Shown here piece by piece: positions 35,513 to 46,949 of a stretch of 64,000 bases of DNA. Positions within the stretch are counted from its first letter, which is position 1, and the number at the start of each line of letters is the position of its first letter. A model generated the notes under the pieces. The model did not search any database. It was not told the DNA's origin and saw nothing but the letters and a program-made list of their open reading frames with translations. The stretch comes from Sphingobacteriaceae bacterium (GTDB lineage Bacteria; Bacteroidota; Bacteroidia; B-17B0; Aurantibacillaceae), in assembly GCA_947453445.1 (NCBI GenBank), contig CANGGP010000009.1, positions 1-64,000 on the forward strand, written 5' to 3'. The translations under genes and the position numbers were made by a program.

Positions 35513-35558
35513 AAGCCACTAATTTCACGAATTAGCACGAATTTAATTAGATCTTTAT
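35513..35558 (+). repeat. Gene-flanking repeat unit A1 (single direct unit)
   Basis: The unit starts AAGCCACTAATTTCACGAAT and continues TAGCACGAATTTAATTAGAT. The same sequence recurs at 35611 and 36173 with one to three changes. It is only 7 nt upstream of the folD start on the other strand, so it may overlap the folD promoter. Confidence 0.85.
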
Positions 35559-35648
35559 TTTTTTAGTGAAAACGAGTGTATTTGGTGGCGATTTTTTTTG
35601 ATTGTTTTTTAAGCCACTAATTTCACGAATTAACACAAATTTAATTAG
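35559..35648 (+). repeat. Flanking block, left copy (inverted unit plus direct unit)
   Basis: TTTTTTAGTGAAAACGAGTG and GTATTTGGTGGCGA form an inverted, degenerate version of the unit; after ATTTTTTTTGATTGTTTTTT comes the direct unit AAGCCACTAATTTCACGAAT. The same block occurs on the other side of the GxxExxY gene, in the same orientation. Confidence 0.85.
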
Positions 35649-35685
35649 ATGTTTTTTTACCAAGGACATTAATAATGCTTTAAAT

Positions 35686-36060
35686 TTATAAAACTACTCG
35701 CTTGAACTTTAAACTGTCTTCTCCAAAATTAACTAATAATCCTAATTTTAATTTTGAAGCTGCTAAGTAATTTATTAGTTGTTTGTAATGCTCACCAATA
35801 ATATTTTCTTGAGCCTTTATTTCTACTATTATTTTATCAAAAATAACAAAATCCGCGTTATAAGAATGAGGCAGATAAATGTCCTTATATTTTATTTGAA
35901 ATTTTTTTTCTTTTTCAAATGGAATATTTCTCTTTTTTAATTCATAGCAAAGGGCGTCTTTGTATACAATCTCCAAAAACCCTCGCCCTAAATTTTTATG
36001 CGCCTCAAAACAGCAATTAATAAAGGAATATACTTCATCTTTAAATAATAAATTATTCAC
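35686..36060 (-). CDS. GxxExxY family protein (PD-(D/E)XK nuclease-like)
   Basis: A 124-residue protein of the GxxExxY family. The name-giving motif is GFLEIVY in AHKNLGRGFLEIVYKDALCY. A PD-(D/E)XK-like core follows: ADFVIFDKIIVEIKA has the Asp and the Glu-x-Lys, and GEHYKQLINYLAASKLKLGL forms the C-terminal helix and strand (LGLLVNFGE). The role is not established; the fold suggests nucleic-acid binding or cleavage. The gene is unusual in context: two direct copies of an about 88-bp block enclose it, and more units are nearby, as if gene and repeats travel together. It is AT-rich relative to folD and ffh by eye. Length and motifs are complete. Confidence 0.85.
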   Translation of the reverse strand: MNNLLFKDEVYSFINCCFEAHKNLGRGFLEIVYKDALCYELKKRNIPFEKEKKFQIKYKDIYLPHSYNADFVIFDKIIVEIKAQENIIGEHYKQLINYLAASKLKLGLLVNFGEDSLKFKRVVL

Positions 36061-36116
36061 TTCATATATATCCGAAGGCTCATTGATTACAAATATATTT
36101 TCAGTTGAAATGATAT

Positions 36117-36210
36117 TTATTTTTTTAGTGAAAATTAGTGTAATTAGTGGCGATTTTTTTTATTGTTTTTTTAAGCCACTAATTTCACGAATTAGCACGA
36201 ATTTTTCTAT
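36117..36210 (+). repeat. Flanking block, right copy (inverted unit plus direct unit)
   Basis: TTTTTTAGTGAAAATTAGTG and GTAATTAGTGGCGA are followed by a T-tract and AAGCCACTAATTTCACGAAT / TAGCACGAATTTTTC. This matches the block at 35559-35648 and lies 57 nt upstream of the GxxExxY start. Confidence 0.85.
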
Positions 36211-36369
36211 TGTATTAAAATGATTTAAATCAACACAAAATAGTGAAGAAATCAATGTCTGGCAAATAAAATTAATGCATTCTTGAGAAAGCCCAACTTT
36301 CCTGCTTTCTCAAATTTCGAACTTATTTAACTTTCAAAACAATAGCACTTATTTGACTTTATCACAAAA
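36211..36369. other. AT-rich gap with a perfect hairpin
   Basis: TTGAGAAAGC (36283-36292) and GCTTTCTCAA (36304-36313) form a 10-bp perfect stem with no T-run. Nothing else in 36061-36444 is gene-like apart from the repeat block and the short tandem repeat that follows. Confidence 0.5.
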
Positions 36370-36440
36370 AAACTTTCCAACTTTCCAACTTTCAAAGCTT
36401 TCCAACTTTCAAAGCTTTCCAACTTTCCAACTTTCAAAAC
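36370..36440. repeat. Short tandem repeat next to the ffh stop
   Basis: About eight units alternate CTTTCCAA and CTTTCAAAG. The array ends 4 nt before the ffh stop codon on the opposite strand. Confidence 0.8.
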
Positions 36441-46437: not shown

Positions 46438-46518
46438 GCCCAGGTGTTGGAATGGTATACAAGTACGCTTGAGGTGCGTATGCCGCAAGGCGTGAGAGTT
46501 CGAGTCTCTTCCTGGGTA
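46438..46518 (+). tRNA. tRNA-Leu (anticodon GAG)
   Basis: A class II tRNA with acceptor stem GCCCAGG/CCTGGGT, D arm TTG...CAA, anticodon stem TACGC/GCGTA around loop TTGAGGT (anticodon GAG, reads CUC and CUU), long variable arm TGCCGCAAGGCGT and T arm GAGAG-TTCGAGT-CTCTT, then discriminator A. CCA is not encoded, as is usual in Bacteroidota. Confidence 0.95.
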
Positions 46519-46520
46519 CA

Positions 46521-46605: not shown

Positions 46606-46949
46606 ATGTTTGAATTCCAAAATCTTGAAGTCTATAAAAAAGCAAAGGTTTTTCATTTAGAATGCAAAAGCTTAATATTTAAAAATAAGTTAGATAATTT
46701 TGTAAAAGATCAAGTGGCAGGGCTTCATTTATCATCGTTTTGAACATTGCTGAAGGCTCTGGAAAATTCTCAAAGCCCGACAGAAAAAATTACTTTACAA
46801 CAGCAAGAGAATCAGTTTTCGAATGCGTTGCAATCTTTGATACGCTTCATGATACAAGTGAAATTAAAACAGAAGATTTCGAAAAGTATTTAAAAGACGC
46901 AGATGAAATGTCAAGAATTCTGTACACTATGATTAAAAATTTGAGTTAG
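46606..46949 (+). pseudogene. Frameshifted four-helix-bundle (S23/IVP-type) protein
   Basis: The first part, MFEFQNLEVYKKAKVFHLEC from ATG 46606, and the second, VLNIAEGSGKFSKPDRKNYF, are the two halves of a four-helix-bundle protein of the 23S rRNA intervening-sequence type (about 115 residues). They are in different frames. The break lies near 46716-46719 in GTGGCAGGG: one missing base would restore Asp-Gln-Val-x-Arg-Ala-Ser in frame with the second half, which ends IFDTLHDTSEIKTEDFEKYL ... MIKNLS at TAG 46947-46949. This is a genuine frameshift, a sequencing error or, less likely, programmed frameshifting. Members of the family often sit near RNA genes; this one follows tRNA-Leu by 87 nt. 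Confidence 0.75.

Follow-up and report, generated by a model that had tools for sequence, protein, structure and literature searches.

Between folD and ffh in the window, the whole stretch of 64,000 nucleotides analyzed here (contig CANGGP010000009.1 of a Sphingobacteriaceae bacterium), lies a small GxxExxY gene surrounded by copies of a repeat, which raises the question of whether gene and repeats form one unit and, if so, which part of that unit moves. A sequence-only reading of this DNA had described a nuclease-fold gene between identical, directly oriented repeat blocks and had proposed a cassette that moves or expands by recombination, possibly with the protein acting on the repeats.

Arrangement and inheritance of the folD-ffh locus

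The gene order in the window is folD - GxxExxY - ffh, with the following features between the two outer genes:

35513..35541, + strand, left-type arm of unit 1 (sequence AAGCCACTAATTTCACGAATTAGCACGAA)
35564..35590, - strand, right-type arm of unit 1
35513-35590, gene-free '+ -' unit 1
35611..35639, + strand, left terminal arm of gene-bearing unit 2
35686..36060, - strand, GxxExxY gene, 124 aa, PD-(D/E)XK fold (PF13366, TIGR04256)
36122..36151, - strand, right terminal arm of gene-bearing unit 2, inverted relative to 35611-35639
36173..36201, + strand, solo left-type arm, start of truncated unit 3

The repeats themselves are real. Exact matches to GCCACTAATTTCACGAATT occur on the + strand at 35515, 35613, and 36175, and a fourth on the - strand at 36133 carries 2 mismatches; these 4 window matches at up to 3 mismatches compare with 0.03 expected from shuffles, and 4 were reached in none of 100 shuffles. 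The additional unit that had been noted at 35513 is likewise present, as the + arm at 35513-35541 with its exact match at 35515. The arms consist of iterated CACKAATT motifs with a period of 9-10 nt, and across the locus they follow the strand order + -, + GENE -, +. Because the units alternate in strand, the gene lies between the two members of an inverted pair (35613-35639 and 36125-36151, 81% complementary), and the supposed direct enclosing blocks are instead '- +' junctions between adjacent tandem units; nor are these blocks identical, as 35550-35642 and 36112-36204 share only 88% identity over 93 nt. The gene-free unit at 35513-35590 appears to be a gene unit that has undergone an internal deletion, since one of its halves matches the left end of the gene unit and the other the right end.

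The window protein scores 141.1 bits against TIGR04256 (cut-off 35) and 129.2 bits against PF13366 (cut-off 22), its sole Pfam match. Its AlphaFold2 model (pLDDT 93, pTM 0.85) has the Cas4-family protein SSO0001 (4ic1) as closest solved fold (Foldseek E 1.3e-4, Z 10.3), and PD-(D/E)XK chains head the fold search, with restriction enzymes and Hjc at Z ~7. D70, E80, K82, and Y98 are invariant in the GxxExxY alignment and Q94 is nearly so, a set of residues that we take to fit a RecB-type nuclease site. The model thus points to a minimal RecB/Cas4-like PD-(D/E)XK nuclease with predicted catalytic activity, which shares with Cas4/RecB-type nucleases the fold and the D, ExK, and QxxxY-type motifs. 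It differs from Cas4 in its length of only ~124 aa, in having no conserved iron-sulphur cysteines among its invariant columns, and in forming a single-gene unit between repeats; a search for the Cas4-type four-cysteine cluster found no cysteine in the invariant or nearly invariant columns of alignment A1 and only C36 in A3.

Several other identities were considered for the protein and set aside. No Holliday-resolvase identity is claimed because the Z of ~7 for archaeal Hjc falls within the background range of the fold search. Among solved structures the only sequence relative was T7 endonuclease I, at a non-significant E of ~1. PADLOC gave no match that would indicate a defence role, and a phage collection gave none that would indicate a phage origin, while 8 plasmid records matched.

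Comparison of the same gap in relatives (genomes are denoted by G, contigs by C, and loci by L) revealed a variety of states. The gap measures 16-33 nt and is otherwise empty in G038, G037, G023, and G002; it is 147 nt long and lacks the gene in G030, and it holds an 84-nt hairpin of another flavour (CAGAT) in G029. The gene is present with CACKAATT repeats in G009, G013, G012, G011, and G015 and with CACKAATT arms in G033 and G025, and a broken form occurs in G010 and G028. Empty sites, which had been expected to hold a single direct block, thus exist at folD-ffh, while the enclosing repeats are not direct blocks; the orthologues read at this site keep their repeats, rather than occurring without them. 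In G015 (L225), hairpin blocks of the CACKAATT type have expanded into a long tandem series within the gap, next to a GxxExxY gene that is intact.

Several clades comprise 7-8 orthologous gene loci at one site, and the folD-ffh neighbours are shared. Within the window clade, dN/dS is 0.05-0.13 where dS is computable; dS is saturated for most pairs, yet arms and protein persist. Given this low dN/dS and the persistence of arms and protein at the shared site, the comparison of sequences indicates that the GxxExxY gene at folD-ffh is under purifying selection and vertically inherited. Movement of a cassette by recombination between direct blocks is at odds with both the inverted arms and the location of the genus's gene copies, which are mostly at shared, vertically inherited sites, and it is mainly the gene-free unit, rather than the gene, that is dispersed.

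Two further features of the window concern another gene family. Between the GxxExxY unit and ffh, at 36293-36440, eight AACTTTC words with a period of ~8 resemble the flanks of a four-helix-bundle gene (S23/TIGR02436) at C1:42268 in this genome. At 46719-46943, just downstream of tRNA-Leu (46438-46519), lies a degenerate S23/TIGR02436 gene fragment covering profile positions 33-108 only.

Inverted flanks across phyla

The association of gene and repeats was evaluated in 178 GxxExxY loci from several phyla (the window's own genome, its genus, a phylum sample, and named GTDB contigs) by aligning each left flank against the reverse complement of the right flank, with two controls, far flanks (1150-1450 nt away within each locus) and mispaired flanks. 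The median inverted-flank score was 32, compared with 19 for far flanks and 19 for mispaired flanks, and 62% of loci scored at least 30, compared with 1.3% of far-flank and 6% of mispaired controls; by this scoring, a strong inverted flank is absent at ~38% of the 178 loci. The arms are iterated heptamers of consensus CRCNNAK, repeated every 9-10 nt, with an outer end of approximately TTAACCRC. The frequency of arrays with at least 3 CRCNNAK motifs at 8-11 nt spacing is 0.25-0.29 per locus within the first 150 nt and drops to near zero beyond 1 kb; the polarity of these arrays is fixed, pointing inward on both sides of the gene. Gene-bearing units are ~470 bp long (for example G003 C13:7780-8248 and C14:129031-129498).

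Outside Bacteroidota, similar arms were found at named loci of Methylobacter, Planctomycetota, Treponema, Anaerolineae, and Ignavibacteria; a clear inverted pair was not found at the named loci of Acidobacteria, Spartobacteria, and Chloroherpeton. Arms are also present at two plasmid loci that were read directly, from Bacteroides finegoldii and Bernardetia. The repeats are therefore strongly tied to GxxExxY genes across genomes, as the sequence-only reading had suspected in treating gene and repeat as belonging together, and are not copies unrelated to such genes. The repeat probably serves the protein as its own site, and the protein may act on it.

Repeat flavour and protein subfamily

Each locus was assigned a flavour from its majority motif, and some unlabelled genes were put into clades by protein clustering and visible arms. 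The genome of the window holds 4 GxxExxY genes, each with its own flavour in its inverted flanks: CACKAATT at the window locus, CCACTAAG at L002, GAACGCAGATGACACTGATG at L001, and CACATAGGG at L004. Among 58 loci of the genus 6 flavours occur, and on the protein tree of these loci flavour changes 9 times, compared with a minimum of 24 and a mean of 31.7 when labels are shuffled within genomes; the all-source set of 149 loci shows 26 changes, compared with at least 70 in shuffles. Because most loci of a clade are orthologous, the test was run again on 21 genomic sites, each represented by a single locus. This resulted in 7-8 changes compared with at least 9, and in every one of 20 draws all 200 shuffles needed more changes than were observed. 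A shared site provides an example, in that L128 carries a CACATAG-flavour gene with CACATAG arms and L048, L056, and L099 carry a gene of another protein clade with CGCAAAG arms. Part of this coupling reflects common descent because arms and gene are physically linked. Taken together, these correlations suggest that each nuclease subfamily is tied to, and may recognize, its own arm flavour.

The coupling bears on two other explanations of the units. The first is that they are ordinary MITE or IS elements, whose arms are the ends for an unrelated transposase encoded elsewhere and whose GxxExxY gene is cargo or a bystander. Like MITEs and their parent transposons, the units have terminal inverted repeats and gene-free forms resembling internal-deletion derivatives, which are typical of MITEs. 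We nevertheless regard this explanation as quite unlikely, since flavour tracks the GxxExxY subfamily even inside one genome, the same gene family lies between the arms across phyla, and the gene units that were read (e.g., L117 and L253) leave no space for another gene. The GxxExxY unit also differs from these elements in having no transposase. At the orthologous sites compared for CACATAG units, the intergenic DNA was too diverged to place an exact insertion junction or to define a target-site duplication, and neither a clean duplication nor a fresh insertion with a clean junction was seen for the units.

The second explanation is that pre-existing repeat hairpins served as landing pads, hot spots at which GxxExxY genes integrated by some other route. 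Gene-less solo units are indeed frequent, and at intergenic sites other than folD-ffh the occupant of a given position can differ between species: it may be a unit of the CACATAG or the CACKAATT flavour or a different hairpin, or the position may be empty. However, in some genomes the flavour of the gene's arms is rare or absent elsewhere (for example, the gene itself is flanked by both CAGAT-type arms of G010 and by all 3 matches of G006), and at the shared site described above gene and arms differ together, so that we consider a landing pad very unlikely.

Gene-free units and a putative gene-repeat pair

Copies of the repeats elsewhere in the genomes, most of which are draft assemblies, were sought by pattern and by region. 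Flavour patterns gave 0-128 matches per genome within one genus, whereas reversed control patterns gave zero or near zero. Gene-free units are dispersed, with up to ~60 copies per genome, and are of the same flavours as the gene arms; many are '+ ... -' pairs of ~60-170 bp. Units of the window flavour also lie elsewhere in the window's own genome, including contig C11, at one end of which (L018, 1-215) a tandem array of gene-free units has a 90-nt period.

For CACATAG, the flavour sampled best, 20 units from G003 were compared; their arms are invariant, their linkers have diverged, and each has a hairpin region at its centre. A stem of at least 7 bp forms in 15 of these 20 units compared with 10% of dinucleotide shuffles, and several Watson-Crick pair types occur at each stem position, which argues that the inner hairpin has been kept through compensatory changes. 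The inner hairpin of CACKAATT units is weaker, being found in 6 of 16 units compared with 13% in shuffles. In L117 and L253 the GxxExxY gene contains GAAGCGCAGCTTC (FEAQL codons), which resembles GAAGCGAAGCTTC, the inner hairpin of gene-free CACATAG units; the hairpin may derive from this stretch of the gene, or the likeness may be coincidence.

Solo units, in counts reduced by a constant to allow for the arms of the gene itself, are held more often by genomes that have the cognate gene (Fisher p 0.002, 0.005, and 0.034, values that ignore kinship and are optimistic because the genomes are related). Five of 6 mismatched pairings of gene and flavour were not significant, and one was borderline (0.03). 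Several genomes contain solo units without the cognate gene, and several others the gene without solo units.

A structure kept as its sequence changes, as in the CACATAG hairpin, would be expected if the hairpins acted at the RNA level, being retained at the ends of genes as elements of transcription or mRNA stability that the nuclease processes or regulates and being immobile today. The position of several solo units in intergenic DNA by gene ends and terminators is consistent with such a regulatory role, as are the purifying selection on the gene and its mostly vertical inheritance. It is, however, difficult to reconcile with copy numbers that range from 0 to more than 100 within a genus, with tandem expansions, with orthologous sites that are often empty or occupied by another flavour, and with nearest folds that are DNA nucleases; we therefore judge it unlikely.

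The explanation that we favour, with somewhat better than even confidence, is that gene and flanks constitute a compact unit of a nuclease gene and its cognate repeat, a pair resembling REPIN/RAYT built upon an unrelated, putative nuclease. Each nuclease subfamily would recognize the phased heptamers of its own arm flavour, probably on a unit extruded as a cruciform or single-stranded hairpin, and would cut at the recognized arms, after which host replication or repair would copy units to new intergenic sites or amplify them as tandem arrays. Within the genus, most gene copies have settled and are vertically inherited while the hairpin population persists. Two correlations, the flavour coupling and the association of solo units with genes, argue for the recognition step of this scheme; the binding, cutting, and copying that we propose are inferred from sequence.

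RAYTs are described as genes that occur in single copy and are inherited vertically, and genomes that carry them contain more REPINs (PMC8049555). In both systems, palindromic units are scattered through intergenic DNA, with copy numbers reaching dozens and inverted pairs forming hairpins, and a vertically inherited gene is flanked by cognate repeats that are more numerous in gene carriers (PMC8049555). They differ in that GxxExxY is a predicted PD-(D/E)XK nuclease whereas RAYT is an HUH (Y1) tyrosine transposase, and in that GxxExxY arms are iterated heptamer arrays of many flavours, with several subfamilies and flavours coexisting per genome. As the HUH transposase is absent, the GxxExxY system is not a member of the REPIN/RAYT group. 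If the proposed pairing is correct, it would be a second example of persistence in the manner of REPIN/RAYT, based on an unrelated enzyme, in which a settled nuclease accompanies a cognate hairpin population. It would also account for intergenic repeats of the CACAAAG/CACGAATT/CGCAGAG type in these genomes. For the widespread, uncharacterized GxxExxY family, a candidate substrate that is specific and testable, its own flanking arms, follows directly from the sequence. We found no paper on an association of GxxExxY with repeats in the open-access literature, which does not prove that none exists.

More tentatively, and in our view somewhat doubtfully, GxxExxY nucleases and their flavoured arrays may represent a phylum-spanning class of elements in which a Cas4/RecB-like nuclease copies hairpins without known transposase chemistry, with S23 genes organized alike; a non-transposase nuclease capable of copying hairpins would be of mechanistic interest. 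The S23/TIGR02436 four-helix-bundle genes share short-period inverted flanks in the same genus, although the protein is unrelated and the repeat words are others (for example AAGTTGG, ATGTTAA, and AGAATCA). Among 30 such genes of the genus (loci L283-L312), 11 have short-period inverted flanks scoring at least 30.

A different kind of insertion was observed at L313 (6186-6297), where 112 bp with two GC-rich hairpins are present in G003 and G032 and not in G014, G009, G010, G013, or G033. The word CTAA occurs beside it twice with the insert and once without, which suggests an insertion with a 4-nt target duplication by an element family other than the GxxExxY units.
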